Shown: positions 1 through 13,326 of the stretch, piece by piece | Layout: each line of letters opens with the position of its first letter | How positions within the stretch are numbered: the first letter of the stretch is position 1 | Source: Oscillospiraceae bacterium | GTDB lineage: Bacteria > Bacillota_A > Clostridia > Oscillospirales > Oscillospiraceae | Length of the DNA: 13,399 nt | Assembly: GCA_017411665.1 (NCBI GenBank) | Contig: JAFQPT010000262.1 | Location: 1 to 13,399 of the forward strand | Direction of reading: 5' to 3' | Notes under the pieces: generated by a model | Seen by the model: the letters and a program-made list of their open reading frames with translations, nothing else | What the model was told of the DNA's origin: nothing | Databases searched by the model: none | Position numbers and translations under genes: made by a program

Positions 1-88
1 CATCCCGAGCGTAGTCGAGGGATCCCCCGAATCATTGGCGTATTGAATGGGGGATTCCTCGATTCCGCTTCGCTTCACTCGGAATGAC
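1..88. repeat. Palindromic intergenic repeat, copy A (left edge cut by window)
   Basis: The two ends are imperfect inverted complements: CCGAGCGTAGTCGAGG near the left and CCTCGATTCC...CACTCGG near the right, closing with GGAATGAC. The core at 31-62 is an exact 32-base reverse complement of 9075-9106 in copy B. There is no coding potential. It resembles the short non-autonomous palindromic elements scattered between genes in gut Clostridia; no transposase is visible nearby. The left end probably continues for a few bases outside the window. Confidence 0.75.
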
Positions 89-125
89 AGATAATTTTGG
101 GAGAGCACCTCGTACTTTCTAACGT

Positions 126-142
126 CTCTTCAAATTCCGATT
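126..142. repeat. 17-base repeat CTCTTCAAATTCCGATT, copy 1
   Basis: This 17-mer occurs again exactly at 6315-6331. Both copies lie just outside a palindromic intergenic repeat (1-88 and 6160-6298). The rest of 89-236 shows no gene or other clear element. Confidence 0.5.
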
Positions 143-236
143 AATTTATCTATGTGATGGGAAGCGGAACCCACGTTTTCCACCGCACATACGTTGCCGT
201 GCTTCCGTATAGCGAGGCAGGAACTGTCCGTACGAA

Positions 237-272
237 CGGAAAAACAGGCACAGCGTTCGCCGCTGTGCCTGT
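237..272 (-). terminator. Rho-independent terminator of the dlt-like operon
   Basis: A perfect 12-bp stem (244-255 with 261-272, ACAGGCACAGCG against CGCTGTGCCTGT) encloses a 5-base loop. On the minus strand it is followed by TTTTCCG, a short U tract. It begins 8 bases past the stop codon of the SGNH gene, which fixes the 3' end of the five-gene operon. Confidence 0.85.
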
Positions 273-279
273 AATCCTT

Positions 280-1404
280 TTATTTTTCAGCCAATGTGTC
301 GAGCAGCTCGGGGCTTTCCGACAGCCAAAGGTCGGTGCCGTTTTTCATACAGCTGTCAGCGTATGCATAGAAGCGGTGGGTGGTATCCACAGCGTAATTC
401 CATGCAGCGCGCTGCTCTGCTGTCTGCTTCATGGGGGTTACATCGTAGTCGCTGACGATGAGATTGCCCAGATAATCGGTGAGCTTCTGCTGTCCGTATA
501 CATTCAGATGGTCGCTGTTGTAGAAGTCGGTCAGATAGTCCAAACCGATGTCTGCGGTGCGTGCGTCCAAATCCAGGAATGCAAATCCGTATTCCCCGAC
601 GATTTCCCCTGCACGCTTTGCCTGTCGATAGCTGTACAGGGTGCCGTCGTCCACCAGCTTATGGGGGCAGCGCAGGAACACCACGTTCAGCTGCTCCGCC
701 TTGCAGTAGTCGAGAAGCTCTCTCAGATACTGCTCGGACAAATCGGTGATGGGCTCGGTTTTGCTGTCCGCAGCCTTGTCCAAATCCAGCACAGGGGCAG
801 TGTCTGTGACGGTGCGGGTGTAGATGCCCTTGAGCAGGGAAGGTGCGCCGTAGGACCGGGTCTTCATGTCCAGACGATACTTCAAATCTCCGAGATTCTT
901 CCAGTCACCGTGGTACTTGATGAAGGGGAAGAAGCAGCTGAGCTTGTCGGCGTAGTCATATGCCATGATGGTGCGGATTTTGTTTTCCGACCAGGGAATG
1001 CTTTCGGTGTAAATGCGCAGACGCGCTTCGTCGCGGAGCATATCGTCATTGCTGTACAGGAAGCCGTTGAGCTCCACCAGGATCAATTGAGGAGACTGGA
1101 CGGAGGTGATTTCCTTCAGCTGAGACAGATACAGGCTGCCGGGGTTGGCATCCTGAGCGTAGAGATAAGATGTGAAGCCGTAGTGCGCATAAGCGTATGC
1201 GGGAGAGAAGTCCGCAAACAGCTCACTGGCACCCAGCAGCACCACGTCCATGGACTGTTCGGGTTCGTTGTAGAAATCGTGGATGCGGTCGGTGTTGGAG
1301 TCTGCGTAGCTGAACAGCAGGCTCTGGGTGAGCAGCAATACGATGAGGATGGGCAGCAGCAATGCGGCACATTTCAAAATTCGAGTCATAGTCATTTGTT
1401 TCAT
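280..1404 (-). CDS. DltD-like SGNH-fold membrane-anchored protein, last gene of the dlt-like operon
   Basis: The protein has 374 residues. An N-terminal hydrophobic segment (about 11-31) would anchor it in the membrane with the remainder outside the cell. The SGNH hydrolase features are the block I motif VVLLGASE with candidate nucleophile Ser60, and the C-terminal block NSDHLN with Asp298-His299. Partners of MBOAT acyltransferases such as DltD and AlgX/AlgJ have this layout, and in those systems they help pass the acyl group to the polymer. The start is ATG at 1404, preceded by AGAGGTG with a 6-base spacer; the site begins at the MBOAT stop codon, 11 bases upstream, so the two are probably translationally coupled. 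Overall similarity to true DltD looks weak by eye, so I assign role rather than orthology. It could equally be an esterase or acetyl-type transferase partner. Confidence 0.78.
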   Translation of the reverse strand: MKQMTMTRILKCAALLLPILIVLLLTQSLLFSYADSNTDRIHDFYNEPEQSMDVVLLGASELFADFSPAYAYAHYGFTSYLYAQDANPGSLYLSQLKEITSVQSPQLILVELNGFLYSNDDMLRDEARLRIYTESIPWSENKIRTIMAYDYADKLSCFFPFIKYHGDWKNLGDLKYRLDMKTRSYGAPSLLKGIYTRTVTDTAPVLDLDKAADSKTEPITDLSEQYLRELLDYCKAEQLNVVFLRCPHKLVDDGTLYSYRQAKRAGEIVGEYGFAFLDLDARTADIGLDYLTDFYNSDHLNVYGQQKLTDYLGNLIVSDYDVTPMKQTAEQRAAWNYAVDTTHRFYAYADSCMKNGTDLWLSESPELLDTLAEK

Positions 1405-1415
1405 GTGCGCACCTC

Positions 1416-3038
1416 TTAAAACTGCATATAGACAAAGGCGGTGGGGTCAAAGCCGGGGCCGTAAATACCGAACACCAGCAGTGCCAGAATCCCCGTCAGC
1501 AGGAATATGTAGCGCACCGCAAAGTGCTGTTCATCCAGCATCTGTCGGATGGTGGTGTGGCTGTTGCGTTCCTGAATGACGCTGATGACAAACAGGAAGC
1601 CCGTGCAAACCATCAGCAGCAGGTAATCCAGTTTACCCAGACCCAAGGAAGCGATTTCCGCTGCGCCCACAGACAGATTCTGGTCGGTGAGGGCCAGAGC
1701 AAAGGTGTGCATAGATTGGGTCAGGTCGGGTGCCACGTCAAATACATAGCCCACCAGCACCACAAGGAAGGTGCGCAGCATTTGGAACACGCGGAAGCCG
1801 AGAGATTTTGCGTTGAGCTTCAGTTTTTCCGTCAGCTCGTCGAACTTGGGTTCCAGCAGAGTGGACAGCATAATGATGCCGCCGTTCCACAGACCGAAGG
1901 CCACATATTTCCAGTTGGCACCGTGCCACACACCCACAAGGAAGAATACCACCAGAGACGCAAAGCTGGTAGGCAGCACCTTGGATACATGTGCACCGAA
2001 TTCGGTCTGCCCGAACTTCGTTGCCTTCAGCTTTTTGCTGACTTCGATGAACTTCTTGGACAGCGCCAGAGGGTAGAATACGTATTCCTTCATCCATGCG
2101 CCCAGTGTGATGTGCCATCTGCGCCAGTAATCGTTGATGGAGGTGGCAAAGTAGGGGCGGTTGAAGTTTTTGACCATGTCAATGCCCAGAATCTGAGCGA
2201 CACCGCGGGAGATGTCAATGCCGCCGGAGAAGTCGGTGTACAGCTGCAGGGCATACAGCAGCACGGTGAAGGTGAGTGTGGTGCCGCCGAAGCCTGCGTA
2301 GTCTGCCACAACGGCGTTGATGGCGATGACGGCGCGGTCGGCAATGACCAGCTTCTTGAAGAAGCCCCACAAAATCAGCTCCAGACCGTGCTTGCAGCGG
2401 GTAAAGTCGAAGGAATGGGGTTCATACAGCTGATGCGCCAGCTGGTCATAAAAGCTGATGGGACCCTGTACGATTTGGGGGAAGAAGGACACAAACAGTG
2501 CGAACTTCCCGAGATTGCGCTCCGCAGGGGTTTTGTCCCAGTACACGTCCACCACATAGCCGACGGACTGGAAGGTGTAGAAGGAAATACCCAGAGGCAG
2601 CAGCAGACGCAGAGTGGGTACGGAGAAGCTGAGCTTCCATGCACCCAACAGGTCGTTGAGGCTGCCTGCGAAGAAGTTGTAGTATTTCAAAAAGGCGAGG
2701 ATGCCCAGATTGAGAATCAGAGCAGCCAGCATGACCTTCTTTTTCCCGGATTTCAGCTGCTCCTTGTAGGCCTTTTTGGTTTCTTTGTCCCAGTCCTTTT
2801 TGTGCTCCTTCAGCTCCGCCTTGCCTGCCAGCGCAATATCCTCAATGCGGATGGCGGCAGAATAGGTGGTGACTGTGGTCAGCAGCAGAAACAGGGCAAG
2901 GCGATAGCTTGCGATGAGATAAAACACATAGCTTGCCGCCAGCAGGACCGTCCACTGATGCTGTTTCTTGGGAAACAGGAAGTAGACCACTGCCACAAGG
3001 CAGACAAACAAAATAAAATTCAGAGAAGTATAGCTCAT
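1416..3038 (-). CDS. MBOAT family membrane O-acyltransferase (DltB/AlgI-like)
   Basis: This 540-residue polytopic membrane protein carries the MBOAT hallmarks: PLGISFYTFQ at about 148-157, YWRRWHITLGAWMKEYV at 304-320 with conserved His309, and VGVWHGANW at 368-376 with the presumed catalytic His372. MBOAT proteins of this class take an acyl group from a cytosolic thioester donor and move it across the membrane to an extracellular hydroxyl, with an SGNH partner. Here the donor would be the carrier protein encoded upstream. The protein is longer than a typical DltB (about 400 residues), partly because of a very Lys/Glu-rich cytosolic-looking stretch at about 73-101. I chose ATG 3038 over the GTG at 3047 because GGGGTGG lies 5 bases before the ATG, whereas it would abut the GTG. 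It begins 12 bases after the decarboxylase stop. Confidence 0.88.
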   Translation of the reverse strand: MSYTSLNFILFVCLVAVVYFLFPKKQHQWTVLLAASYVFYLIASYRLALFLLLTTVTTYSAAIRIEDIALAGKAELKEHKKDWDKETKKAYKEQLKSGKKKVMLAALILNLGILAFLKYYNFFAGSLNDLLGAWKLSFSVPTLRLLLPLGISFYTFQSVGYVVDVYWDKTPAERNLGKFALFVSFFPQIVQGPISFYDQLAHQLYEPHSFDFTRCKHGLELILWGFFKKLVIADRAVIAINAVVADYAGFGGTTLTFTVLLYALQLYTDFSGGIDISRGVAQILGIDMVKNFNRPYFATSINDYWRRWHITLGAWMKEYVFYPLALSKKFIEVSKKLKATKFGQTEFGAHVSKVLPTSFASLVVFFLVGVWHGANWKYVAFGLWNGGIIMLSTLLEPKFDELTEKLKLNAKSLGFRVFQMLRTFLVVLVGYVFDVAPDLTQSMHTFALALTDQNLSVGAAEIASLGLGKLDYLLLMVCTGFLFVISVIQERNSHTTIRQMLDEQHFAVRYIFLLTGILALLVFGIYGPGFDPTAFVYMQF

Positions 3039-3050
3039 GTGCGCCACCCC

Positions 3051-4241
3051 TTACAGAAACAGCATGGGGGTGTTGAAGGGGTCGCTGAGAAGCATACGGC
3101 GAATCATGGTCAGCCCATCTGCCTCGGAGTACACGTGTATCTCGGGCATCTCTCTGCTCAGAAATACGGACATGCCTTCCATGACGGAGTAGGCACCTGT
3201 GCGGTGGAATACCAGAATGTCCCCGATTTGCAGGTCGGTCAGCTGTGCGTTGCGTGCCAGTACGTCGGCGGTGGTGCACAGACTGCCGCACAGAGTCCAG
3301 GGCTTTGCTTCGGTTTCTCCTGCGGTGCGGTCACCCTTGATGTGGGTCATCACGGGAATCTGCATGCCTTGGATCTGACCGTCGTACTTCAGCTGGTTGA
3401 GACCGCCGTCTACGATGGCATAGTGAATATCCTGATTGGTCTTGGTGTCCATGACCTTGGTGACGTAGTATCCGCAGGGCGCAGCGAAGAAGCGGCCCAT
3501 TTCCACAGTCAGCTCTGTCAGCTCCGCAACCTCGCGAATCTTCTCGCTGATGTCGCCGAGACGCGCCTGCTCGGCCTCGTCAGCCTCGGCAGTGAAGTAG
3601 TCCACAGCCAGACCCGTGCCGTATTCCAGACGCTGTGCTTTAAAGCCGTGCTCTGCATCCAGCTTGCGGAAGAAGTCCATGAGATCGTCCAGTTCCTTGA
3701 TGATGGCCTTGGCCTTGCGCTTCTGGGTGCCGGAGAAGTAGTGGATACCCACGATTTCGATGCCCGCATAGTCGCTGCGGCGGTCGATGATGTGCAGCAC
3801 ATCCGCCTCGTCCAGACCGAACTGGCTGCCTGCGGTCAAACGCACCAGCACGGGTACGACGATGCCGCGAGCCAGTGCGGCTTCGTTGATGAGGTCCATA
3901 TGCAGGTAGCTTTCCGCGGTGAAAACGCCCACCTTATCGTCTATGGCCCGTTCCACATCGGCCTTGGTCTTGTTGACACCGGAGAAAATGACCATGTCCA
4001 TGTCGATGCCCAGCTGCTCGCAGATGGTCAGCTCACCGGGGCTGCAGACCTCGATTTTTTGGAAGGTGTCGGGCAGATACTTCAGCAGGAAGGGGTTGGC
4101 CTTAATGGAGAAGCACAGACCCGTCTTTTCACCGAAAGCATCCCGCACCAGTCGGGCACGGGCGGCGAATTCGTCCGTATCAAAGATGTAGGCCGGGGTG
4201 TTGATCCGGCCTGCAAATGTGTTCAGTACGCTCTGCTGCAT
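3051..4241 (-). CDS. PLP-dependent decarboxylase, fold type III (Orn/DAP/Arg decarboxylase group 2), dlt-operon associated
   Basis: The 396-residue protein has an alanine racemase-like TIM barrel followed by a C-terminal beta domain. Visible motifs are CFSIKANP with PLP-binding Lys47, GIHYFSGTQ at 165-173 with the His that stacks on the cofactor ring, VEMGR at 246-250 for phosphate and pyridine contacts, CGSLCTTADVL at 318-328 with Cys322, and GAYSVMEG at 349-356 with Tyr351. The family removes the alpha-carboxylate of amino acids such as diaminopimelate, ornithine and arginine. Relatives including BtrK of butirosin biosynthesis act on a glutamyl group already bound to a carrier protein. Here the gene starts one base after the carrier gene's stop, which favours a carrier-linked substrate over lysine biosynthesis. 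ATG 4241 is preferred to the upstream in-frame codon at 4265 because AGGAC precedes it and the family N-terminus fits. The substrate cannot be read from sequence. Confidence 0.85.
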   Translation of the reverse strand: MQQSVLNTFAGRINTPAYIFDTDEFAARARLVRDAFGEKTGLCFSIKANPFLLKYLPDTFQKIEVCSPGELTICEQLGIDMDMVIFSGVNKTKADVERAIDDKVGVFTAESYLHMDLINEAALARGIVVPVLVRLTAGSQFGLDEADVLHIIDRRSDYAGIEIVGIHYFSGTQKRKAKAIIKELDDLMDFFRKLDAEHGFKAQRLEYGTGLAVDYFTAEADEAEQARLGDISEKIREVAELTELTVEMGRFFAAPCGYYVTKVMDTKTNQDIHYAIVDGGLNQLKYDGQIQGMQIPVMTHIKGDRTAGETEAKPWTLCGSLCTTADVLARNAQLTDLQIGDILVFHRTGAYSVMEGMSVFLSREMPEIHVYSEADGLTMIRRMLLSDPFNTPMLFL

Positions 4242-4242
4242 C

Positions 4243-4470
4243 TTATTCGTCCTGCAGCTGTTCAATCAGTTCCATCATCGCTTCTGCGGAATTGAAGTTT
4301 TCGGGAATCAGATGATTGGGCTTGATTTCAATGTCAAAGGCATCGTTGAGCTCTGCAACCAGAGATACGATGTCGAAGGAGTCCAGAATGCCGTTGGCAA
4401 TCAGACCGGTTTCCAGTTCAAAGTCTACGTCGGGGCGCAGTTCTTCCAGAATTTCCATCAGTTCGTTCAT
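4243..4470 (-). CDS. Acyl/aminoacyl carrier protein (DltC-like)
   Basis: This is a 75-residue acidic helical protein. The motif GILDSFDIVSLV at 27-38 is a carrier-protein phosphopantetheine attachment site, with Ser31 following Asp30, as in the DSF/DSL motif. Size and charge match DltC (about 78 residues). It should receive an aminoacyl group from the adenylating enzyme encoded 32 bases upstream and present it to the decarboxylase and the MBOAT protein. The ATG at 4470 has an excellent site, AAAGGAG, 7 bases before it, so the longer open frame extending upstream into the adenylating-enzyme gene is not used. No separate phosphopantetheinyl transferase gene is present in the window, so that function must be supplied elsewhere. 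Confidence 0.9.
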   Translation of the reverse strand: MNELMEILEELRPDVDFELETGLIANGILDSFDIVSLVAELNDAFDIEIKPNHLIPENFNSAEAMMELIEQLQDE

Positions 4471-4502
4471 GTTTCTTTCTCCTTTAGAAGTATGGTTTTC
4501 TG

Positions 4503-6008
4503 TTATTTGAAGTATGTTTTCATGGTTTGCATATCGGGCTTGCCGTTGGGCAGGCGGGGCAGTGCCTCCAGCTTCACCAGCTTTCTGGGCACCATAAAGG
4601 CGGGCAGCACCTTGCGGAAGTACAGGGTGATTTCCTTGGAGGAGGCGTCCCCTGTGTAGAACAGGTACAGCAGCTCTTTTTCCTTGTGGTACAGCGCGCA
4701 GCACTCGGTCACGCCGCCCACCTGCAGGGCAGTCTGTTCGATTTCGCCCAGCTCGATGCGGTGACCCATGTGCTTGATCTGGCGGTCCATGCGTCCGTGG
4801 AACTGCAGGTTGCCGTTTTCGTCCCAGCGGCCAAGGTCGCCTGTCTTGTAAATCAGCTCGCGGTAATTGGGGTTCAGCGGATTCTGGGTGAAGGACTCTG
4901 CGGTACGTACGGGGTCACCGTAGTAGCCCAGTGCCAGCACAGGCCCTGTGACGCAAATCTGACCTACCTCACCGTCGGGCACGGCGGTGTCGTCCTCGCT
5001 CAGCAGCAGGATGCCGTAGTTTTCGTAGGGCTTGCCGATGGGCAGCACGGTGTCGTCGCTCACCTTGCCCTCCACCACGTAGTAGGTGCAGGATGCGGTG
5101 GCTTCCGTGGGGCCGTACTGGTTGACGTACAGCACATGGGGCAGTGCCTCCTGCCAGATTCTCAGATATTTGCAGGGCATCACGGAACCGGAGAAGCAGA
5201 CCTTCTTGAGGTATTCGGGTTTGCTGACCTCGAAGCCGCCCAGCTTGGCAGGCAGCTCAATACCCGCAACGCTCCAGCACAGGGTGGTGACCTTGTGCGC
5301 GTTCAGCGTGTCAAACAGCTGTGTGGGCATGGAAAATTCATTCTTGGGAATGACCACAGTGCTTGCGCCCAGCTTCAAGGGGATGTAGATATCGCGGATG
5401 GCGGCAATGTAGTCAAAAGGAGACTGGTTGCCCAGAATATCCGTATCCTGCATGTCCATGACCTTGCAGAAGCCGTTGATGTAGTGCATCAAGGACTGGT
5501 GTGCGGTGATGACACCCTTGGGCACGCCTGTGGAGCCGGAGGTGAAAATCACATACAGGGGAGAGGTGGGCAGCAGGGCAGAGGAAGCCTTTGCCAGCAG
5601 TGCCTCATCAATGGGGTTATCTGTAATGTCGTCGGACACGATGATTTCCCCGTCAAATTCCAACTGACGGGCAATGTCCAGAAAGTCCTTGTCTACCAGC
5701 ATGTGCTTGGCCTTGATGACGCCCAGAATCTGATTCAGACGGCTGACAGGCATGGTGGCATCCATGGGAGCATAGAAGCAGCCTGCGCGGACAACGCCCA
5801 GAAACAGAGCGGGGGTCACGACATGGCGTCCGCTCATGACCACCACGGGGCTGCCGCAGGGGACGCAGGAAGCCAGATAGGTGCCGACGGACTTGGTAAT
5901 GCGGTCAAATTCGCCGAAGGTCAGGCTGCGGCTGCTGTCGGTGAATACGGTTTTGTCTGCGTATTCACGGGCGGTGCGGTCCAGCCAGACCAGTACAGTT
6001 TCGTTCAT
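4503..6008 (-). CDS. Amino acid adenylating enzyme, DltA-like (carrier protein ligase)
   Basis: A 501-residue stand-alone adenylation domain of the ANL superfamily. Core motifs run in order: FTSGSTGVPKG at 155-165 (ATP phosphates), SPFDY with Asp199 expected to hold the substrate amine, NQYGPTEAT at 296-304, YKTGDLGRW at 387-395, HGRMDRQIK at 404-412 and LPNGKPD with catalytic Lys490. Length matches DltA. It would activate an amino acid as an aminoacyl-AMP and transfer it to the carrier protein encoded next. The pocket differs from DltA: the segment CFSGSVMP has Ser273 where DltA (FCGE) has the Cys that selects D-alanine, and FDYIAAIRDIY is two residues longer than in DltA. A substrate other than D-alanine is therefore plausible. 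ATG 6008 is preferred to ATG 6029 because GAGAAG precedes it and the protein then begins as family members do. Confidence 0.87.
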   Translation of the reverse strand: MNETVLVWLDRTAREYADKTVFTDSSRSLTFGEFDRITKSVGTYLASCVPCGSPVVVMSGRHVVTPALFLGVVRAGCFYAPMDATMPVSRLNQILGVIKAKHMLVDKDFLDIARQLEFDGEIIVSDDITDNPIDEALLAKASSALLPTSPLYVIFTSGSTGVPKGVITAHQSLMHYINGFCKVMDMQDTDILGNQSPFDYIAAIRDIYIPLKLGASTVVIPKNEFSMPTQLFDTLNAHKVTTLCWSVAGIELPAKLGGFEVSKPEYLKKVCFSGSVMPCKYLRIWQEALPHVLYVNQYGPTEATASCTYYVVEGKVSDDTVLPIGKPYENYGILLLSEDDTAVPDGEVGQICVTGPVLALGYYGDPVRTAESFTQNPLNPNYRELIYKTGDLGRWDENGNLQFHGRMDRQIKHMGHRIELGEIEQTALQVGGVTECCALYHKEKELLYLFYTGDASSKEITLYFRKVLPAFMVPRKLVKLEALPRLPNGKPDMQTMKTYFK

Positions 6009-6056
6009 AGTCAAACTTCTCTTTCTCATGTGAAGTGTACATAGTTAATCAAAATA

Positions 6057-6085
6057 ATTGTAATGTAAACCCTATCAAAAGTCAA
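6057..6085 (-). promoter_or_regulatory. Sigma-A promoter of the dlt-like operon
   Basis: Read on the minus strand, TTGACT (6080-6085) and TACAAT (6057-6062) are separated by exactly 17 bases, each one mismatch from consensus. Transcription would begin near 6050, leaving a leader of roughly 40 bases before ATG 6008. No obvious operator palindrome overlaps it. Confidence 0.75.
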
Positions 6086-6159
6086 CGAAAAGGACAGGAT
6101 TCAAGAGGTTGTTTGCAGAAAGATAAACAAGAATTTGAAGGGAAGAGTTAAAAGAGGCG

Positions 6160-6298
6160 CTTGGCTCCCCTTCGATAAGGGGAGCTGGCATTTTGCGCAG
6201 CAAAATGACTGAGAGGTCGATTTTACAAACGTCTCCGCATGTTTTTCGACCTCTCCACCGCAAGCGGTCCCCATCCCCTTCGCAAGGGGAGGCAAGGT
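6160..6298. repeat. Nested palindromic intergenic repeat (multi-hairpin element)
   Basis: Several hairpins are stacked inside one large inverted repeat. Outer arms are TTGGCTCCCCTT (6161-6172) against AAGGGGAGGCAAGG (6284-6297); inner arms are GAGGTCG (6213-6219) against CGACCTC (6247-6253). Each arm itself folds: CTCCCCTT...AAGGGGAG near 6165-6184, ATTTTGC-GCA-GCAAAAT at 6190-6206, ACCGC-AA-GCGGT at 6257-6268, and CCCCTT-CGC-AAGGGG at 6275-6289. Such structures are widespread non-coding repeats in gut Firmicutes and can form a stable RNA or cruciform. It is non-autonomous and carries no gene. Confidence 0.75.
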
Positions 6299-6314
6299 TG
6301 CGGCAGTTTACCAA

Positions 6315-6331
6315 CTCTTCAAATTCCGATT
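6315..6331. repeat. 17-base repeat CTCTTCAAATTCCGATT, copy 2
   Basis: Exact second copy of the 17-mer at 126-142, in the same orientation, lying 16 bases outside the palindromic element. Confidence 0.5.
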
Positions 6332-6370
6332 TGTCGGGCGGTCAATTTGCTGCCCGTGTTTGTCTGAGCG

Positions 6371-6408
6371 AATTAAAAAATCCAAGCTGCAGTTTGCAGC
6401 TTGGATTT
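6371..6408 (-). terminator. Rho-independent terminator of the symporter gene
   Basis: A perfect 14-bp stem (6378-6391 with 6395-6408) around a 3-base loop, rich in AGCTGCA at the tip. On the minus strand it runs into TTTAATT, so it acts on transcripts from the symporter gene, whose stop codon is 5 bases upstream. It separates the symporter from the dlt-like operon. Confidence 0.85.
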
Positions 6409-6413
6409 CCGAT

Positions 6414-7823
6414 TTATTTCATTGCGTTCTTTTCTGCGTCTACCCCGGAGAAGTATTCTCTCGTCAGCTGTACCACTACACCCGACAGGCCGAGCAGTGC
6501 AATCAGATTGGGGATTGCCATCAGACCGTTCAAAGTATCTGCGATGTCCCATGCCAGACCCAGGTCCATGGTAGCACCGACAATGACAATCGCAACAAAC
6601 AGTGTCTGGTAAACCTTGTTGAATTTTGTGCCGAAGATGAACTCGCAGCAGCGGGTGCCGTACAGACCCCAGCTGAGTACGGTGGACAGTGCAAACAGGG
6701 TAATGCCCACAGCGATAATCAGTGCGCCGATTTCGTCGCCGAATACGGTGCCCAGCGCCTTTGCATTGAGAGCAGTGGTGCCCTTGGTGCCGTAGTTGAG
6801 GTCGATGCCGCTGACCAGCAGTGTCAGACCACTCATGGTGCAGATGACGATGGTGTCCATGAACACTTCAAAAATGCCGTACAGACCCTGCTTGACGGGG
6901 TTGGTTTCGGAGGTTGCGGCATGTGCCATGGGTGCAGAGCCCAGACCTGCTTCGTTGGAGAATACGCCGCGCTTGACGCCCCATTCAATGCACAGCTTCA
7001 AGGTGAAGCCGCTGACACCGCCCACAACGGAGGAGGGGTTGAAAGCGCCTTTGAAAATCATACCGAAGACTACAGGCAGTTTTTGTGCATGGAAAATCAG
7101 CACAACGATGCTTGCTGCAATATAAATGATAGACATGAAGGGAATCATCTTTTCGGTGACGCTGCCCAGACGCTGGATGCCGCCCAGCAGAGTGATGGCA
7201 ACGATGACGGCAACAATGACACCGATGGTGAGATTCAGTGCGGTGCTGCCGGTAAAGTCGGGGTTAAAGGTGGAAACAGCCGTGCTGATGGAGTCGGTGA
7301 TGTTGCCGACCTGTACCGCATTGCCGATGCCGAAGGCGGCCAGTGCGCCGAAAGCGGAGAAAATGATTGCCAGCCACTTCCAGTTTTGACCCAGACCGTT
7401 GGTAATATAGTACATGGGACCGCCGACCCAGTCACCCTGGGCATTGCGTTCGCGATATTTGACCGCCAGCACAACTTCCGCATACTTGGTGCACATACCG
7501 ATCAGCGCGGAAACCCACAGCCAGAAAATGGAGCCCGCACCGCCCAGTGTCACTGCCCAGGTGATACCCGCGATATTGCCGGTACCTACCGTTGCCGCCA
7601 GTGCGGTGGTGACCGCCTGGAAGGGAGAAACAGCGCCGTCCTGCTTTTCGGACTTATGAAAGACCTTGCCGATGGTGTTTTTCATGGCATAGCCGAAGCG
7701 CTTGAACTGTACGCCGCCGGTGCGGAGGGTCAGAAACAGACCTGCGCCCAGCAGAAGAACCAGCATGGGGATGCCCCATACGAAACCGTTAATGACAGAG
7801 TTGATGTGAGCGATAAATTCCAT
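6414..7823 (-). CDS. Sodium:alanine/glycine symporter (AGCS family, AlsT/AgcS-like)
   Basis: A 469-residue polytopic membrane protein. Family signatures are TALAATVGTGNIAG at 73-86, GDWVGGPMYYITNGLG at 130-145 and the hallmark SNEAGLGSAPMAHA at 289-302. Members import alanine, glycine or in some cases glutamine together with Na+. The protein has the usual length and looks intact. ATG 7823 was chosen because the protein then begins MEFIAHINSVINGFVW, as relatives do; the nearest Shine-Dalgarno-like AAAGG is about 13 bases upstream, which is distant, while the longer frame from 7904 has no support and would start upstream of the predicted transcript. It has its own promoter and terminator and diverges from a GntR regulator that may control it. 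Substrate specificity is not readable from sequence. Confidence 0.92.
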   Translation of the reverse strand: MEFIAHINSVINGFVWGIPMLVLLLGAGLFLTLRTGGVQFKRFGYAMKNTIGKVFHKSEKQDGAVSPFQAVTTALAATVGTGNIAGITWAVTLGGAGSIFWLWVSALIGMCTKYAEVVLAVKYRERNAQGDWVGGPMYYITNGLGQNWKWLAIIFSAFGALAAFGIGNAVQVGNITDSISTAVSTFNPDFTGSTALNLTIGVIVAVIVAITLLGGIQRLGSVTEKMIPFMSIIYIAASIVVLIFHAQKLPVVFGMIFKGAFNPSSVVGGVSGFTLKLCIEWGVKRGVFSNEAGLGSAPMAHAATSETNPVKQGLYGIFEVFMDTIVICTMSGLTLLVSGIDLNYGTKGTTALNAKALGTVFGDEIGALIIAVGITLFALSTVLSWGLYGTRCCEFIFGTKFNKVYQTLFVAIVIVGATMDLGLAWDIADTLNGLMAIPNLIALLGLSGVVVQLTREYFSGVDAEKNAMK

Positions 7824-7862
7824 AGTGAGTTGACAACCTTTCTGTGCAATGGGGATGCAGAC

Positions 7863-7891
7863 ATAATAACACTTAAAATTTTCGGTTTCAA
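7863..7891 (-). promoter_or_regulatory. Sigma-A promoter of the symporter gene
   Basis: On the minus strand TTGAAA (7886-7891) and TATTAT (7863-7868) are 17 bases apart. Transcription would begin near 7856, about 33 bases before ATG 7823. This also rules out the longer reading frame from 7904. Confidence 0.7.
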
Positions 7892-7943
7892 GAGTAGAAA
7901 ACAAAAATTATTTCGATGGCGTGGCTTGATTTAAGGTTCGGTG

Positions 7944-7985
7944 AAAAATATTTTTAATTTACCCTTGTGAAGCAAAAATATTTTT
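7944..7985. promoter_or_regulatory. Twin A/T palindromes between divergent promoters
   Basis: The 12-bp palindrome AAAAATATTTTT occurs at 7944-7955 and again at 7974-7985, start to start exactly 30 bp, about three helical turns. The pair lies between the symporter promoter and the gntR promoter. The placement suits a bound dimer pair or intrinsically bent DNA. Whether it is the GntR operator is inference, since A/T-rich runs arise easily. Confidence 0.4.
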
Positions 7986-8006
7986 TGTTTCATAGAAAAT
8001 ATGTGC

Positions 8007-8035
8007 TTGCAAGGCTGTAATTTTGGTATTATAAT
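8007..8035 (+). promoter_or_regulatory. Sigma-A promoter of the GntR regulator gene
   Basis: TTGCAA (8007-8012) and a perfect TATAAT (8030-8035) are separated by 17 bases. Transcription would start near 8042, giving a leader of about 54 bases that contains AAGGAGAGAG ahead of the start codon. Confidence 0.8.
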
Positions 8036-8095
8036 GTAAACGTGGTAAAATTCATTGTGAAATGTGTTTATATATAAAAGGAGAGAGATTGAGCC

Positions 8096-8872
8096 GTGAA
8101 TCCCGTATTGATGAGCAAACTGTCCCTGGAAACCGATATTCCATTATACTACCAGCTGGTCAATATTATTAAGAGAAACATCACCGCAGGCACGCTGAAG
8201 CCCGGTGACATTCTGCCCAGCGAATCCGAAATGTGCAAAAATTTTGATATCAGCCGCAGCACCGTCCGTCAGGCGGTCAGCATGCTGGAGGACGAGGGTC
8301 TTGTTGTGCGCAAGCAGGGCAGAGGCACCTATGTTGCGCAGCCCAAGGTACACAGAAAGACACAGCAGCTGTATTCCTTCACATCCGAAATGTCTTCTCT
8401 GGGTCTGACTCCTTCCTCCAAGCTGGTGGAATATGAAGTTATGGAACCCACTCCCGACATTATGAAGATGCTGGAGCTGAGCAGCCCCGAGACTCTGGTC
8501 TATAAGTTCTCCCGTATCCGCTACATGGATGACGAGGCACTGATTCTGGAGACTTCTTTCTATCCCCAGTATCTTTACCCCAATCTGACCCGTCCCATGC
8601 TGGAACGCAACAGCTTCTACAGCCTGCTGCTGGAACAGGGCATCACGCCCTATGAAGCAGTGGACTCCTATGAAGCAGTGGTGCTCAACCGCCGCGAAGC
8701 TGAACTTCTGGGCTGCAGACCCGGCAGCTCTGCGTTTGCTGTGCAGCGCGTGACCCGCATGGAAAACGGCCAGCCCTACGAATTCACCCAGAGCCTTATT
8801 CGCGGTGACCGTGTCAAGCTGGACGTATATCTGAAGAAGGAAGGCGTCAGCTTCACCAGAAATCTGGGCTAA
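8096..8872 (+). CDS. GntR family transcriptional regulator, HutC/FarR type with UTRA domain
   Basis: 258 residues in two domains. Residues about 15-80 form the winged helix-turn-helix: IPLYYQLVNIIKRNI, then the GDILPSESEMC and SRSTVRQAVSMLEDEGLV signatures, ending in the wing KQGRGTYV (73-80). Residues about 95-245 match a UTRA effector-binding domain, with a typical ending that reads EFTQSLIRGDRVKLDVYL. Such regulators usually repress nearby genes until a small ligand binds. The gene diverges from the symporter, so control of amino acid uptake and of itself is a reasonable inference; the ligand is unknown. The start is GTG at 8096, preceded by AAGGAGAGAG; the in-frame ATG at 8111 lies too far from that site. 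A terminator follows directly. Confidence 0.9.
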   Translation: MNPVLMSKLSLETDIPLYYQLVNIIKRNITAGTLKPGDILPSESEMCKNFDISRSTVRQAVSMLEDEGLVVRKQGRGTYVAQPKVHRKTQQLYSFTSEMSSLGLTPSSKLVEYEVMEPTPDIMKMLELSSPETLVYKFSRIRYMDDEALILETSFYPQYLYPNLTRPMLERNSFYSLLLEQGITPYEAVDSYEAVVLNRREAELLGCRPGSSAFAVQRVTRMENGQPYEFTQSLIRGDRVKLDVYLKKEGVSFTRNLG

Positions 8873-8876
8873 TTTC

Positions 8877-8915
8877 AAAACCGACAAGGCATAGTGCGCC
8901 TTGTCGGTTTTTCTT
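8877..8915 (+). terminator. Rho-independent terminator of the GntR regulator gene
   Basis: A perfect 10-bp stem CCGACAAGGC (8881-8890) with GCCTTGTCGG (8898-8907) encloses a 7-base loop and is followed by TTTTTCTTT. It begins a few bases past the stop codon. Confidence 0.9.
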
Positions 8916-8954
8916 TGTGGTTAGATGCCCGATCGGAGCGGTTATTAAAAGTAG

Positions 8955-8974
8955 GGAAGGCGTGCATGCCTTCC
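8955..8974. repeat. Short hairpin, GGAAGGC stem
   Basis: A 7-bp perfect stem, GGAAGGC (8955-8961) with GCCTTCC (8968-8974), around a 6-base loop. There is no T tract, so it is not a simple terminator. Confidence 0.5.
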
Positions 8975-9058
8975 GTAAATGCAAGTCCCCTACAAATCGA
9001 AGTTTGTGAATCGACGCTCCAAAAGAGAATTGTACAAGGGATGCACCTAAAACTTTCC

Positions 9059-9136
9059 GTCATTCCGAGCGAAGTCGAGGAATCCCCCATTCAATACGCC
9101 AATGATCCGGAGATCCCTCGGCAAGCTCGAGATGAC
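9059..9136. repeat. Palindromic intergenic repeat, copy B (inverted relative to copy A)
   Basis: The element starts GTCATTCCGAG and ends CTCGAGATGAC, so its termini are imperfect inverted complements; the inner arms CGAGGAATCCCCC and GGAGATCCCTCG also pair. Bases 9075-9106 are the exact reverse complement of 31-62, so two copies of one element sit in this window in opposite orientations. It carries no open frame with coding support. Confidence 0.8.
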
Positions 9137-9188
9137 AATTTTTTTACGGAAAATCAGTTTTCGTTCGCACTGCGTGAAGGAAAGGGTC

Positions 9189-9283
9189 TCAGGGAAAACC
9201 ATGGCTGGTTTTCCCTGAAATCGCGTCGCGTTAGCGATAGAGCATTTCAGCAGAAATGCTCGCGATTATAAATTCTAATTTAT
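9189..9283. repeat. Cluster of consecutive hairpins
   Basis: Three perfect stem-loops follow each other: a 13-bp stem at 9189-9201/9206-9218 with loop TGGC, an 8-bp stem AGCATTTC/GAAATGCT at 9241-9260 with loop AGCA, and a 7-bp stem ATAAATT/AATTTAT at 9268-9283. A weaker ATCGC/GCGAT pair lies between the first two. None has a proper T tract. It could be a remnant of mobile repeats or a structured RNA; nothing identifies a known family. Confidence 0.55.
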
Positions 9284-9323
9284 CGTGCAGAGGCTTGCTC
9301 CTGTCGGTTCATTCCGAATCGTA

Positions 9324-9344
9324 GGGGCGATGCTCACATGCCCC
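9324..9344. repeat. Short hairpin, GGGGC stem
   Basis: GGGGC (9324-9328) pairs with GCCCC (9340-9344), extended inward by ATG/CAT around the loop CTCA with one bulged G. It resembles the GTAGGGGCG-type short repeats seen between genes of gut Clostridia. Confidence 0.45.
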
Positions 9345-9459
9345 GGCAGATTACAAGCAGAACGGCAGCAATCGGCAGCGGAGAAAATGAAGTCTGCGAA
9401 GCTGTGGTGTTAAGAAATCGAAAATATTTACATAAAATGAAGGTGTCCGCAACTGTTGT

Positions 9460-9538
9460 ACAAAATCGGGAAGAGTCCTTGAAATGCGAACAAAATCGTG
9501 AAAAATTTGCCAAATTTCTGTGCTGATTGGCACAAAAT
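9460..9538. repeat. Spaced ACAAAAT direct repeats upstream of rnf
   Basis: ACAAAATCGGGAA (9460-9472) and ACAAAATCGTGAA (9490-9502) match at 12 of 13 positions and start exactly 30 bp apart; a third, partial ACAAAAT is at 9532-9538. They lie upstream of the predicted rnf promoter, where an activator could bind. Confidence 0.4.
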
Positions 9539-9594
9539 TACAAAAATTTTGAAATTATTATTACAGAATGTGATGATTTTTCGTCGGTTTCGTA

Positions 9595-9623
9595 TGGACA
9601 TATTTTCAGAATCATGTTAAACT
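9595..9623 (+). promoter_or_regulatory. Probable promoter of the rnf operon
   Basis: TGGACA (9595-9600, one mismatch to TTGACA) is 17 bases from TAAACT (9618-9623), which is preceded by TG at 9615-9616, an extended -10. Transcription would begin near 9630, just before the AGAGAGGTG ribosome site. The -10 hexamer is weak, so the exact start is uncertain. Confidence 0.5.
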
Positions 9624-9654
9624 GAATGAGTTAAATTTTAGAGAGGTGATGCAA

Positions 9655-10995
9655 ATGCCATTTAAGTATTACGGCGGCGTCCATCCGGACGAAATGAAGC
9701 AGCCCCACCTGGCTGTTTCCACTATTCCTCAGCCGTCTCAGGTTGTCATTCCTCTTCAGATGCACATCGGTGCACCCTGCCAGCCTCTGGTAAAGGTTGG
9801 CGACGTGGTCACCATGGGCCAGAAGATCGGTGATAACCCCGCACCGCTCTGCGCTCCTATCCACGCTACCGTTTCCGGTAAGGTTGTGGCTATCGAGCCC
9901 AGACGTCACTGCGTAGTTGGTGATCTGGTCCCCTCCATCGTCATCGAAAACGATGGTCTGGACACCCCCTGCACCGACCTTGCTCCTCTGACCGAAGAGG
10001 AACTGAAGGATCCTGAAGCTATCATTCAGAGAATCCGTGAAGCAGGCGTTGTAGGTATGGGTGGCGCAATGTTCCCCACCCACTTCAAGATTCAGGGCGG
10101 CCGCGGCAAGGTCGACACCCTGATCATCAACGGTGCTGAATGCGAACCTTACCTGAACGGTGACCATCGCACCATGCTCGAACACCCCGTAGAACTGCTC
10201 AAGGGCATTGAGCTGGTTCGTATCGCACAGGGTGTTGATACCGCTTACTACGGCATCGAAAAGAACAAGCAGGACGCTATCGATCTGCTCAACTCCCTGA
10301 ACCCCGAACAGTACGGCATCGTGATCGTACCCGAAGAGGTCAAGTATCCTCAGGGCGCTGAAAAGATGCAGGTTAAGGCAAACACCAACCGCGAAGTTAA
10401 GCCCGGCGGCATCCCCTCCGGCGTAGGCTGCAACGTTGTTTCCACCTTCACCGCTTACTCTGTTTACAGAGCTTGCTACGAAGGTCGTCCTCTGATCGAA
10501 CGTGTTCTGTCCGTTGGCGGCTCCGCAATCGAGCCCGCAAACGTTCTGATTCGTTTCGGTACCCCCATCCAGCACGTCATCGATCATCTGGGCGGCTTCA
10601 CTCGTCCCATTGACCGCATCGTTCTGGGCGGACCTATGATGGGCTTTGCATCCTTTGACCAGAGCTGCGGCCTGATCAAGGGTATCTCCGGTCTGCTGTG
10701 CTTCACTGAAGATGAAAACAGAGACGTAGAAAATCCCACCTGCATCCGCTGCGGCAAGTGCATCGAAGTATGCCCCATGAAGCTGCAGCCCATTCACATG
10801 TACATGTACACCCAGAAGAAGGACTATGACGCAATGCAGAAGTTCCACGTCATGGACTGCTTCGAATGTGGTTCCTGTACATATAACTGCCCCGGCCGTC
10901 TGCCTCTGACTCCCACCTTCAAGATGGGCAAGGCAATGCTCAAGGCTAACGATGCCAAGATGCGTGCCAAGGCAGAAGCAGCAGCTAAGAAGTAA
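9655..10995 (+). CDS. rnfC: Rnf complex subunit C (iron-sulfur, NADH/FMN-binding)
   Basis: 446 residues. RnfC is the peripheral subunit of the membrane ferredoxin:NAD+ oxidoreductase and passes electrons between the NAD(H)/flavin site and the rest of the complex. Visible parts are an N-terminal barrel-sandwich region (about 1-90), the Gly-rich motif GVVGMGGAMFPTHFK at 131-145, INGAECEPYL at 158-167, and two 4Fe-4S motifs near the C-terminus: Cys363/366/369/373 in CIRCGKCIEVCP and Cys402/405/408/412 in CFECGSCTYNCP. It lacks the long C-terminal extension seen in some proteobacterial forms. I chose ATG 9655 because AGAGAGGTG ends 6 bases before it; the GTG at 9646 and ATG at 9649 overlap or abut that site. 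It is the first gene of the operon, as in clostridial clusters. Confidence 0.96.
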   Translation: MPFKYYGGVHPDEMKQPHLAVSTIPQPSQVVIPLQMHIGAPCQPLVKVGDVVTMGQKIGDNPAPLCAPIHATVSGKVVAIEPRRHCVVGDLVPSIVIENDGLDTPCTDLAPLTEEELKDPEAIIQRIREAGVVGMGGAMFPTHFKIQGGRGKVDTLIINGAECEPYLNGDHRTMLEHPVELLKGIELVRIAQGVDTAYYGIEKNKQDAIDLLNSLNPEQYGIVIVPEEVKYPQGAEKMQVKANTNREVKPGGIPSGVGCNVVSTFTAYSVYRACYEGRPLIERVLSVGGSAIEPANVLIRFGTPIQHVIDHLGGFTRPIDRIVLGGPMMGFASFDQSCGLIKGISGLLCFTEDENRDVENPTCIRCGKCIEVCPMKLQPIHMYMYTQKKDYDAMQKFHVMDCFECGSCTYNCPGRLPLTPTFKMGKAMLKANDAKMRAKAEAAAKK

Positions 10996-11011
10996 GGAGG
11001 CCCGAACGTAA

Positions 11012-12085
11012 ATGAACGAAAAAATGCTCTATAATGTTTCCGGCGCTCCCTTTATCCGTTCCAAGACCGATACCAGCACCATCATGCGCGATGTGCTGAT
11101 CGCTCTGGTTCCCGCGCTGGCAGTTGGCGTTTGGCAGTTCGGCCTGAAGGCTCTGCTGAATGTCGTGATTTCCGTTGTATCCTGCGTATTCTTTGAATAT
11201 GCATACCGCAAGCTCATGAAGAAGCACTCTACCGTCAATGACCTGTCCGCATGCGTGACCGGCGTTCTGATGGTATACTGCATGCCCGTTGGCGCTACCT
11301 GGTGGATGATCGTACTGGGCAGCTTCTTCGCAATCGTTGTTGTCAAGCAGCTGTACGGCGGCATTGGCAAGAACTTCCTGAACCCCGCTCTGGCAGGCCG
11401 TGCATTCCTGCTGAGCTACCCCGTTCTGATGACCACCTGGGCAGTTCCCACCGCTCTGAAGGGTGCTGTTGATACTACTACCATGGCAACTCCCCTGTCC
11501 TACATGTATTCTGGCGCAGCTCTGCCCGAATACTACACCATCGGCAACATGTTCCTGGGCGGCATCCCCGGCTGTATCGGCGAAGTTTCCGCACTGGCTC
11601 TGATTCTGGGCGGCGCTTACCTGCTGTACAAGGGCGTCATCTCCTGGCGTATTCCCGGAACCTTCATCGGCACCGTTGCAGTTCTGACTCTGGTGTTCGG
11701 CCGTGAAGGCTACGGCAATGTAGAATGGATGCTGCTGAACCTGTGCTCCGGCGGTCTGATGCTGGGCGCAATCTTCATGGCAACCGACTACTCCACCAGC
11801 CCCGTTACTCCCAACGGTCAGCTGATCTTCGGTGTAGGCTGTGGCCTGCTGACCGTGCTGATCCGTTACTTCGGCGGCTACCCCGAAGGTGTTTCCTACG
11901 CTATTCTGATCATGAACCTGCTGGTATGGGCGATCGATAAGGCAACTCCTCAGACTCAGTTCGGTATCTCCAAGGCTGACAAGAAGGTTGCTGAAGCAGA
12001 ACGCAAGGCTGCAAAGGCTGCTGAAAAGGCAGACAAGCTGCAGAAGCAGGTTGAAAAGCTGCATGCAGAAGGAGGTCACAAGTAA
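11012..12085 (+). CDS. rnfD: Rnf complex subunit D (membrane, covalent FMN)
   Basis: 357 residues with about nine or ten hydrophobic segments, belonging to the NqrB/RnfD family. The motif DTTTMAT (154-160) followed by PL fits the flavin-transferase target, with Thr160 as the likely covalent FMN site. GGIGKNFLNPALAGRAFL (116-133) and ATDYSTSPVTPNG (about 257-269) are typical of the family. RnfD forms the membrane core through which electrons pass and ions may move. The last 40 residues form a Lys/Ala/Glu-rich, coiled-coil-like cytosolic tail. A GGAGG site follows the rnfC stop, 11 bases before ATG 11012. The stop overlaps the rnfG start by one base (TAATG), indicating coupled translation. Confidence 0.96.
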   Translation: MNEKMLYNVSGAPFIRSKTDTSTIMRDVLIALVPALAVGVWQFGLKALLNVVISVVSCVFFEYAYRKLMKKHSTVNDLSACVTGVLMVYCMPVGATWWMIVLGSFFAIVVVKQLYGGIGKNFLNPALAGRAFLLSYPVLMTTWAVPTALKGAVDTTTMATPLSYMYSGAALPEYYTIGNMFLGGIPGCIGEVSALALILGGAYLLYKGVISWRIPGTFIGTVAVLTLVFGREGYGNVEWMLLNLCSGGLMLGAIFMATDYSTSPVTPNGQLIFGVGCGLLTVLIRYFGGYPEGVSYAILIMNLLVWAIDKATPQTQFGISKADKKVAEAERKAAKAAEKADKLQKQVEKLHAEGGHK

Positions 12086-12624
12086 TGGAAAAGCAGAGTA
12101 CTTCCTCTCTGATCATTAAGATGGCTGTTCTGCTGATGGTCATCTGTGCAGTTGTATCCGCAGTTCTGGGTGCTGTGAACATGGTTACTTCTCCCACCAT
12201 TGCGCAGATTGCTGCTGAAAAGACCGCAGCTGCTTACAACGAAGTTCTGCCCACTACCGGCGATTACGAAGCAGTCGATTACACCGATGCAAACGTAACC
12301 GCAGTTGCAAAGTGTGCAGAAGGTACTGTTGTTGAAGTCAGCATTTCCGGTTCTCAGAGCATGCTGTTGCTGGCAATCGGCGTTGACAACGACGGTGTGA
12401 TTACCGGTGTTTCCGTCATCGACCATGGCGAAACTCCCGGTCTGGGTGCAAAGGCTGCCGATCCTACTACCGGCCTGCGTACCACCCTTATCGGTCAGAC
12501 CGATGGTCTGGCTCTGTCCAAGAAGGGCGGCACCGTAGAAGCTCTGACCGGTGCTACCATCACTTCTCAGGCTGTTGTTGATGCATGTCAGATCGCAATC
12601 GACACTGCTGCAAATGTGGGTTAA
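12085..12624 (+). CDS. rnfG: Rnf complex subunit G (FMN-binding, extracytoplasmic)
   Basis: 179 residues: one N-terminal membrane helix (about 9-34) and an extracytoplasmic FMN-binding domain. HGETPGLGAK (114-123) and LTGATITSQAV (154-164) are family signatures; Thr158 is the expected covalent FMN attachment site. The residue at the start of this motif is Glu152, where Asp is usual. RnfG carries electrons on the outer face of the complex. It overlaps rnfD by one base and has GGAGG 9 bases upstream inside the rnfD end. A flavin transferase (ApbE) would be needed and is not in the window. Confidence 0.95.
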   Translation: MEKQSTSSLIIKMAVLLMVICAVVSAVLGAVNMVTSPTIAQIAAEKTAAAYNEVLPTTGDYEAVDYTDANVTAVAKCAEGTVVEVSISGSQSMLLLAIGVDNDGVITGVSVIDHGETPGLGAKAADPTTGLRTTLIGQTDGLALSKKGGTVEALTGATITSQAVVDACQIAIDTAANVG

Positions 12625-12639
12625 GGAGGGTAAGGCAAC

Positions 12640-13326
12640 ATGAATATTAAGCAACAGTTCAAGGAAGGCCTTGTTACCAATAACCCCGTTCTGGTACAGC
12701 TGGTTGGTATGTGCGCTACCATGGCGATCACTACCTCTCTGTTCAACGGCGTTGGCATGGGCCTGTCCGTTCTCGTCATTCTGACCTGCTGCAACGTCGT
12801 AGTTTCCATGCTGCGTAAGATTATCCCCGGCGAAATCCGTCTGGCGATCTTCGTTGTTGTTATCGCAGGCTTCGTTACTATCGTTGACCTGGTTCTCCAG
12901 GCATACGTTCCCGCTCTGGCGGATTCTCTGGGTGTATTTATCCCGCTGATCGTTGTTAACTGCATCATCATTGGTCGTGCAGAAGCATTCTGCTCCAAGA
13001 ACACTGTTGGTGCATCCTTCATCGACGGCGTTGCTCAGGGTCTGGGCTACACTCTGGTTCTGATCGCTATGTGTGTCATCCGTGAATTCCTGGGTTCCGG
13101 CACCATCGGCGGCGGTCTGGTTGAAATCGTTGACGGCTCTCTGAAGTTCGCAATGGGCACCGCAAAGGGCATCCAGGTCTTCCCCGCAGAATACGGCATT
13201 ATGTACATGATCCTGCCCTTCGGCGGTTTCGTGACTCTGGGCGTACTGATTGCTCTGATGCAGTTTGTTCTGAGAAAGTCTGCTGAAAAAGCAGAAGCAA
13301 AAGAAGCACAGGAGGTAAATGAATAA
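12640..13326 (+). CDS. rnfE: Rnf complex subunit E (integral membrane)
   Basis: 228 residues with about six membrane helices, of the RnfA/RnfE/NqrD/NqrE family. Signature stretches are NNPVLVQLVGMCATMAITTS (14-33), RKIIPGEIRLAIFVVVIAGFV near 59-79 and PLIVVNCIIIGRAEAF near 102-117. Cysteines inside helices 2 and 4 correspond to those that hold an intramembrane iron-sulfur cluster with RnfA in structures of Rnf and NQR. GGAGGG lies 9 bases before the ATG. A short Lys/Glu/Ala-rich tail ends the protein, and its stop overlaps the rnfA start by one base. Confidence 0.95.
   Translation: MNIKQQFKEGLVTNNPVLVQLVGMCATMAITTSLFNGVGMGLSVLVILTCCNVVVSMLRKIIPGEIRLAIFVVVIAGFVTIVDLVLQAYVPALADSLGVFIPLIVVNCIIIGRAEAFCSKNTVGASFIDGVAQGLGYTLVLIAMCVIREFLGSGTIGGGLVEIVDGSLKFAMGTAKGIQVFPAEYGIMYMILPFGGFVTLGVLIALMQFVLRKSAEKAEAKEAQEVNE

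Follow-up and report, generated by a model that had tools for sequence, protein, structure and literature searches.

A five-gene operon of Clostridia may couple amino acid decarboxylation on a carrier protein to acylation of the cell surface

Results

We analysed a five-gene operon in a stretch of 13,399 nucleotides from an Oscillospiraceae bacterium (GenBank assembly GCA_017411665.1, contig JAFQPT010000262.1, positions 1 to 13,399), referred to below as the window. The open reading frames (ORFs) all lie on the minus strand and encode, in reading order, a ligase of 501 amino acids (6008-4503; AMP-binding in Pfam), a carrier protein of 75 (4470-4243; PP-binding, PF00550 at 23.8 bits), a pyridoxal phosphate (PLP) decarboxylase of 396 (4241-3051; N- and C-terminal domains of the Pfam ornithine/diaminopimelate/arginine decarboxylases), an MBOAT protein of 540 (3038-1416; MBOAT in Pfam) and an SGNH-like protein of 374 (1404-280). 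The gaps from ligase to SGNH gene measure 32, 1, 12 and 11 bases. Our re-call of the ORFs bears out the preliminary description of this DNA, which had listed five co-directional genes at these positions with gaps of 1 to 32 bases, and the five protein families named there also hold, four by Pfam assignment and the SGNH partner by the fold of its predicted model. That description had further given the operon one promoter and one terminator. Candidates for both are found, as matches to consensus only: a sigma-70-like promoter upstream of the ligase gene (6085-6057, minus strand; TTGACT-17-TACAAT, 10/12) and an intrinsic-terminator-like hairpin (272-244, minus strand; 12 pairs, then TTTTTCC) that starts 7 bases past the last stop of the operon.

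To place the operon among its relatives, we scanned genomes with a decarboxylase alignment, kept the best 80 of 107 relatives and read the gene order at these loci with profiles built from the five-gene set. The arrangement is not a product of chance, because 62 of the 80 related loci share all five genes in the order ligase-carrier-decarboxylase-MBOAT-SGNH. Among the remaining 18, the contig ends in or before the MBOAT gene in seven (L001, L004, L006, L023, L052, L059 and L063), just past it in L033, inside an MBOAT gene standing 2 kb off in L011, and inside the carrier gene in L060; L051 holds four genes, the ligase not among them, and L058 and L070 hold all five with the SGNH gene placed upstream. 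Among the named hosts are Ruminococcus bromii YE282 (L008), further Ruminococcus, and records of Eubacterium and Lachnospiraceae. At E <=1e-70 the family was found in 14 of 391 genomes sampled from the class of R. bromii; it occurs in 12 of 150 sampled from its family and in 4 of 398 sampled from its phylum (R. bromii counted in each time).

The class scan also gave 13 distant Clostridia genomes, of which 12 were fetched as loci (L139-L150). The full set is present in 11 of these 12 (L139-L149) in three other gene orders, namely ligase-decarboxylase-carrier-MBOAT-SGNH (eight loci), decarboxylase-carrier-ligase-MBOAT-SGNH (two) and MBOAT-SGNH-ligase-decarboxylase-carrier (one). From the thirteenth genome (G352) only the short locus L132 was read, and it holds the ligase and decarboxylase genes. 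Adjacency beyond this genome, which the preliminary description had proposed to look for, is therefore found in both related and distant loci, and since the set is kept through rearranged orders, one joint function is favoured. When neighbouring genes were compared across 95 sequences, the ligase, decarboxylase, MBOAT and SGNH clusters were present in 72-87, the next best cluster reaching 18; the carrier fell below the size limit of the script.

For residue counts, rows of the family alignments were dropped if shorter than 480 (ligase), 70 (carrier), 380 (decarboxylase), 500 (MBOAT) or 350 residues (SGNH) or if scoring 75 bits or less, with one row kept per locus; the conservation counts thus leave truncated genes outside.

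The decarboxylase has the PLP alanine-racemase fold, with Lys47 and a CTT motif at Cys322, and the PLP lysine is kept in 91 of 91 near-full-length enzymes. Its closest match in the PDB is BtrK, the L-glutamyl-[BtrI acyl-carrier protein] decarboxylase (E 1.4e-33), while its highest NCBIfam score comes from the LysA model TIGR01048, at 188 bits for a cut-off of 298. We built a tree of 45 rows, including 23 operon enzymes (11 chosen from the main clade and 12 distant ones) and 17 LysA-type enzymes from the same genomes. All 23 operon enzymes carry CT or CS where all 17 LysA-type enzymes carry CE, in the CE(S/T/N) motif, and the arginine of LysA is present in 0 of the 23 in the printed alignment columns. 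In LysA the far end of diaminopimelate is bound by the glutamate of the CE motif together with the arginine of the R-(Y/P) motif. The CT motif is also present in BtrK, two VinO-like enzymes, an enzyme from a Paracoccus ligase-carrier-decarboxylase trio and a Geobacillus enzyme. Compared with BtrK and the VinO-like enzymes, most operon rows have lost some 14 residues from the loop before QFG (12 residues are kept in L061 and 9 in the others). The 23 operon enzymes form a single group in the tree (support 100/100) with the VinO-like pair adjacent (96/93), and all 17 LysA-type rows group together (100/97). Alignment and tree thereby place the decarboxylase in one clade with carrier-tethered decarboxylases, apart from LysA. 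As a side observation, the His that usually stacks on PLP, at residue 167, is replaced by Gln in 8 of 91 aligned enzymes and by Glu in 1.

We further looked for LysA in 18 genomes picked from those behind the 80 loci, the completeness of which is not given. A second, better-scoring LysA-type gene is present in 17, eight scoring above the LysA cut-off (427-498 bits) and nine below it (262-283), and G015 showed the operon enzyme only. Because of this separate gene, lysine synthesis seems not to need the operon copy in 17 of the 18 genomes. We rejected the assignment of the window enzyme as LysA: the model stays under its cut-off, the Glu and Arg positions are missing, and most of the genomes have a LysA-type gene besides. 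The enzyme is a paralogue distinct from LysA, and both its motif and its place in the tree are those of enzymes acting on carrier-bound amino acids, which supports the reading of the preliminary description. A related possibility is a diamino-dicarboxylic substrate, for example meso-diaminopimelate, with loading through one end and decarboxylation at the opposite end, so that a lysyl ester would form on the polymer. Although the fold family includes diaminopimelate decarboxylase and LysA gives the top NCBIfam score, the loss of both LysA positions throughout the operon enzymes of the tree, together with the simpler option of loading free lysine directly, makes this reading very improbable.

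The ligase reaches the cut-off of a single model, the general adenylation model TIGR01733 (317.7 bits against 317.4). DltA is otherwise the nearest named ligase, with its two models far under cut-off (224 against 560 and 251 against 476). The carrier is free-standing and has its phosphopantetheine serine at Ser31 in LDSFD, conserved in 91 of 91 near-full-length rows, and its nearest NCBIfam models are those of DltC (PRK05087, 36.9 for a cut-off of 68; a second DltC model, 22.6 for 52). We mapped the ligase pocket by ungapped HMMER alignment to LgrA, in which Asp199, Ile201 and Arg205 correspond to positions 233, 235 and 239 in GrsA numbering; around these positions the mapping leans on what we take to be the GrsA motifs. 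The pocket shows Asp199, Arg205, Ser273 and Lys490 at positions 233, 239, 301 and 517. Among 83 decarboxylase-linked ligases, Asp233, Ser301 and Lys517 are present in all 83, position 239 is Arg in 71 and Lys in 12, position 235 is Ile in 71 and Asp in 12, and positions 330 and 331 are Ala/Gly/Cys and Ser/Asn throughout. Position 235 is usually the amino-binding Asp.

As a reference, the DltA of the control locus L152 has S, F, D, L, M, V, F, C, T, V, A and K at positions 233, 234, 235, 236, 239, 278, 299, 301, 322, 330, 331 and 517. Of the pocket positions compared, Lys517 alone is common to the window ligase and this DltA, which, with both DltA models under cut-off, marks the ligase as other than DltA. 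A second reference is the ligase of a related set that has no decarboxylase (L151), with Phe233, Val301 and Lys239. Asp233 and Ser301 hence appear to go with the decarboxylase in our sample, which holds this one negative case besides DltA. In VinN the Asp matching position 235 binds the amino group, while Ser299 and Arg331 bind the extra carboxyl (PMC11253843 and PMC7756342, the former also giving the GrsA pocket position numbers). The shifted Asp and the basic residue of the operon ligases would fit a substrate that has a second carboxylate and bears its amino group elsewhere than alpha to the carboxyl being activated.

The pocket also bears on the order of events, for a free amino acid could be decarboxylated first and the ligase then load the finished omega-amino acid, beta-alanine or gamma-aminobutyrate (GABA), with all other steps unchanged. 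The absence of a VinN-type Lys330/Arg331 for the extra carboxylate would agree with this, and there is a precedent in IdnL3, which turns beta-glutamate into 3-aminobutyrate that is then recognised by the ligase IdnL1 (PMC11284099). On the other hand, Arg or Lys at 239 with the hydroxyl at 301 (83/83) would suit a substrate still bearing its carboxylate, and in the tree the decarboxylase falls on the side of VinO and BtrK, the two characterised members there, which use a carrier-bound amino acid. We therefore regard prior decarboxylation as unlikely and favour decarboxylation on the carrier.

The MBOAT protein has His309, His372 and, at its C-terminal end, FVYMQF, an FXYXXF acyl-shuttle motif with Tyr537 (codons and stop at 1416..1436, minus strand). 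Both histidines are present in 79 of 79 near-full-length MBOATs and the shuttle tyrosine in 78 of 79. In a six-frame search of the window the MBOAT end is the sole FXYXXF followed by a stop, and no DltX-like separate peptide was found. The DltB model scores 132 for a cut-off of 375; two DltB rows cover model residues 1-444 and 1-451 of 540, and helices at 469-491 and 506-523 lie beyond. In contrast, the control locus L152 has a canonical DltB and, at its dlt genes, a separate 54-residue DltX-like ORF ending in FTYAEF. No canonical DltB was found in 17 of 18 tested operon genomes. FXYXXF is described on the separate DltX in Dlt systems and on the MBOAT itself in carrier-free systems (PMC12148441).

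Two loci call for separate mention. L151 (genome G017, 156-4612) is a ligase-carrier-MBOAT-SGNH set with no decarboxylase and a different ligase pocket, whose MBOAT ends in FMYAQF; because of this motif, the combination of carrier and fused shuttle extends beyond the sets that have a decarboxylase. At L069 (10188-17047) a second, convergent MBOAT-SGNH pair adjoins the five-gene set; the L069 MBOAT in our counts is that of the second pair, and the MBOAT of the five-gene set ends in AEFIYMQF.

The SGNH protein, a putative membrane-anchored acyltransferase partner, has no Pfam or NCBIfam match at E 0.001. Its AlphaFold model (predicted local distance difference test score 95.4) shows an N-terminal helix at 2-29 and SGNH/DltD matches. 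Ser60, Asp293 and His299 are present in 60 of 60 aligned relatives, and near-full-length rows keep the serine in 75 of 75 and the histidine in 74 of 75. Block V, at residues 293-299, is unusual in form: three residues before the histidine, 47 of the 60 relatives have Asn and 12 have Asp, and an invariant Asp stands six before it.

The operon could also be an ordinary D-alanine Dlt operon that happens to contain an unrelated decarboxylase for free amino acids. DltC as the best of the carrier models, DltA as the nearest named ligase and the existence of a decarboxylase-free set at L151 all speak for such a bystander. Yet the decarboxylase is retained across several gene orders, the ligase pocket departs from that of the L152 DltA, and the canonical DltB with its DltX-like ORF at L152 represents a different system, so that we give this explanation very little credence and continue with a set in which all five genes act together.

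In the rest of the window, an AgcS Na+/alanine-type symporter gene (6414-7829) and a GntR/UTRA regulator gene (8096-8872) lie between the operon and the Rnf electron transport genes rnfC, rnfD, rnfG and rnfE (9646-13326, plus strand; rnfG just under cut-off). A repeat element occupies two intergenic sites in opposite orientation (27-115 and 9032-9110), with 27-69 and 9068-9110 being 93% complementary and 73-115 and 9032-9074 being 74%. At the loci L072 (7192-11347) and L073 (2892-7127), a lipoprotein-like ORF (signal-like start, then GCSIW) follows the trio in the place of the MBOAT, and a search of the L072 genome (G014) with the DltB model gave nothing at E 0.001.

Discussion

We consider it probable that the set makes an acyl group on its carrier from an amino acid and then acylates an envelope polymer, and we give the same good confidence to the cargo being an amino acid that has been decarboxylated while on the carrier. 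The reactions, cargo and target set out here are predicted from gene content, residues and relationships. The ligase would use ATP to activate an acidic amino acid at its side-chain carboxyl and load it onto the phosphopantetheine arm of the carrier. The decarboxylase would then strip the free alpha-carboxyl to leave an omega-aminoacyl thioester, most likely beta-alanyl. Such chemistry has precedents: 3-methylaspartyl-VinL is decarboxylated by VinO only after thioester formation (PMC11284099), and BtrK converts Glu-S-BtrI to GABA-S-BtrI (PMC7857480). The MBOAT protein would carry the acyl group across the membrane onto its own Tyr537, and Ser60 of the SGNH protein would accept it and esterify a surface polymer. 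The product would add a positive charge as D-alanine does, through a beta- or omega-amino acid ester. For the identity of the cargo, beta-alanine from aspartate is a tentative choice; it is favoured over GABA because facile cyclisation has been proposed for gamma-aminobutanoyl starters (PMC4737276).

An envelope polymer is a putative acceptor, because in the 95 sequences compared no gene for polymer synthesis is found next to the set nearly as often as the genes of the set themselves. This same result would agree with an acceptor that is not a wall polymer but a secreted or lipid-linked small molecule, such as a lipopeptide-like compound, and VinO and BtrK do serve natural products. However, MBOAT/SGNH pairs with FXYXXF are described for envelope polymers (PMC12148441), and we judge a small-molecule acceptor to be quite improbable and retain an envelope polymer as the predicted target.

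Besides the lack of a commonly recurring polymer gene, several observations weigh against the proposed pathway. For the decarboxylase, the lead of BtrK over a LysA in the PDB search is small (E 1.4e-33 against 3.6e-30), the wider split of operon, VinO and BtrK enzymes from LysA is supported only at 92/81, and the program warns of long branches. The Paracoccus enzyme, from a ligase-carrier trio, places on the LysA side of the tree, and the Geobacillus enzyme, which has the CT motif with no ligase annotated nearby, pairs with BtrK on the operon side; because of these two placements, motif and tree position are no proof of carrier use. The ligase has neither the Lys330/Arg331 pair nor the shortened loop of VinN, and its profile scores the L152 DltA at 262 bits against 142-147 for VinN-like enzymes. 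Activation of the side-chain carboxyl is thus unproven by homology, since the VinN loop is absent and the ligase is nearer to the DltA type. A basic residue at 239 is not tied to the presence of the decarboxylase, because the L151 ligase also has Lys239. Canonical DltB is rare throughout the R. bromii family (2 of 150 genomes), so that its lack is no hallmark of the operon. Lastly, the trio stands without an MBOAT in the DNA read at L038, L072, L073 and L074 (9.0, 1.35, 2.65 and 1.7 kb downstream), the distant locus L150 is a trio without MBOAT and SGNH in the DNA read, and L071 holds the decarboxylase alone.

The comparison with known systems shows where the pathway would be a composite. Relative to Dlt (DltA, DltB, DltC, DltD and DltX; D-alanylation of teichoic acids), the operon adds a decarboxylase and has the shuttle motif fused to its MBOAT, with the DltA, DltB and DltC models under cut-off. 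The preliminary description had called the operon Dlt-like, which fits only the half around the carrier; an MBOAT with its own FXYXXF is found instead in carrier-free systems of the PatA type. The operon shares with PatA/PatB-type O-acetylation pairs an MBOAT with extra C-terminal helices ending in FXYXXF and an SGNH partner, but it has a carrier and an amino acid ligase, not an acyl-coenzyme A (CoA) donor, and we infer that its MBOAT takes the donor from the operon carrier. Other MBOAT/SGNH pathways are described without a carrier protein (PMC12148441). Since the MBOAT carries its own C-terminal shuttle motif as in the PatA type, the pathway would be a hybrid of a Dlt front end (ligase and carrier), a decarboxylation step of the natural-product type and a PatA-type transfer end with an MBOAT-fused shuttle.

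VinN/VinL/VinO of vicenistatin and FlvN of fluvirucin, which make beta-amino acid starters, likewise combine a ligase, a free carrier and a fold-III PLP decarboxylase. The operon decarboxylases adjoin the VinO-like enzymes in the tree, whereas the operon ligase lacks the VinN residues at 330 and 331, and the VinN/VinL/VinO product goes to a polyketide synthase while that of the operon would go to the MBOAT. In the BtrK/BtrI pair of butirosin, BtrK is the best PDB match of the operon decarboxylase and shares its CT motif; the final product differs. The resemblance to exosortase-associated enzymes, drawn in the preliminary description, stands in so far as the ligase and decarboxylase superfamilies are alike and side by side, although TIGR03098 (161 for a cut-off of 592) and TIGR03099 (178 for 478) remain far under cut-off; exosortase itself was not sought. 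On plasmid pAMI5 of Paracoccus aminophilus (L122, 307-7462), an AMP-ligase, a carrier, a type III PLP enzyme, an SGNH protein and two GT61 glycosyltransferases occur together, and the annotation of the 11 kb that were read shows no MBOAT; this is a possible Gram-negative counterpart acting on polysaccharide.

The modules are each known, and their combination and the form with a carrier plus a fused shuttle appear undescribed: in the titles and abstract openings of the literature matches listed, subscription papers lying outside the search, the five-gene set is not described. We put at about even the prospect of a third route of surface aminoacylation, in which gut Clostridia esterify an envelope polymer with a carrier-made beta- or omega-amino acid through the fused shuttle tyrosine of a carrier-fed MBOAT. 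If so, both the cargo and the route from carrier to fused shuttle would be new, and the described split between a carrier-fed MBOAT with separate DltX and a CoA-fed MBOAT with fused shuttle would be broken. The set would then offer a compact system for testing the choice of donor by MBOATs. A surface amine other than D-alanine would also be added to the envelopes of Gram-positive gut bacteria, Ruminococcus bromii among them. A non-alpha-amino ester, chemically unlike D-alanyl esters, may behave differently, and, by analogy with Dlt, it may affect surface charge and the response to host peptides.

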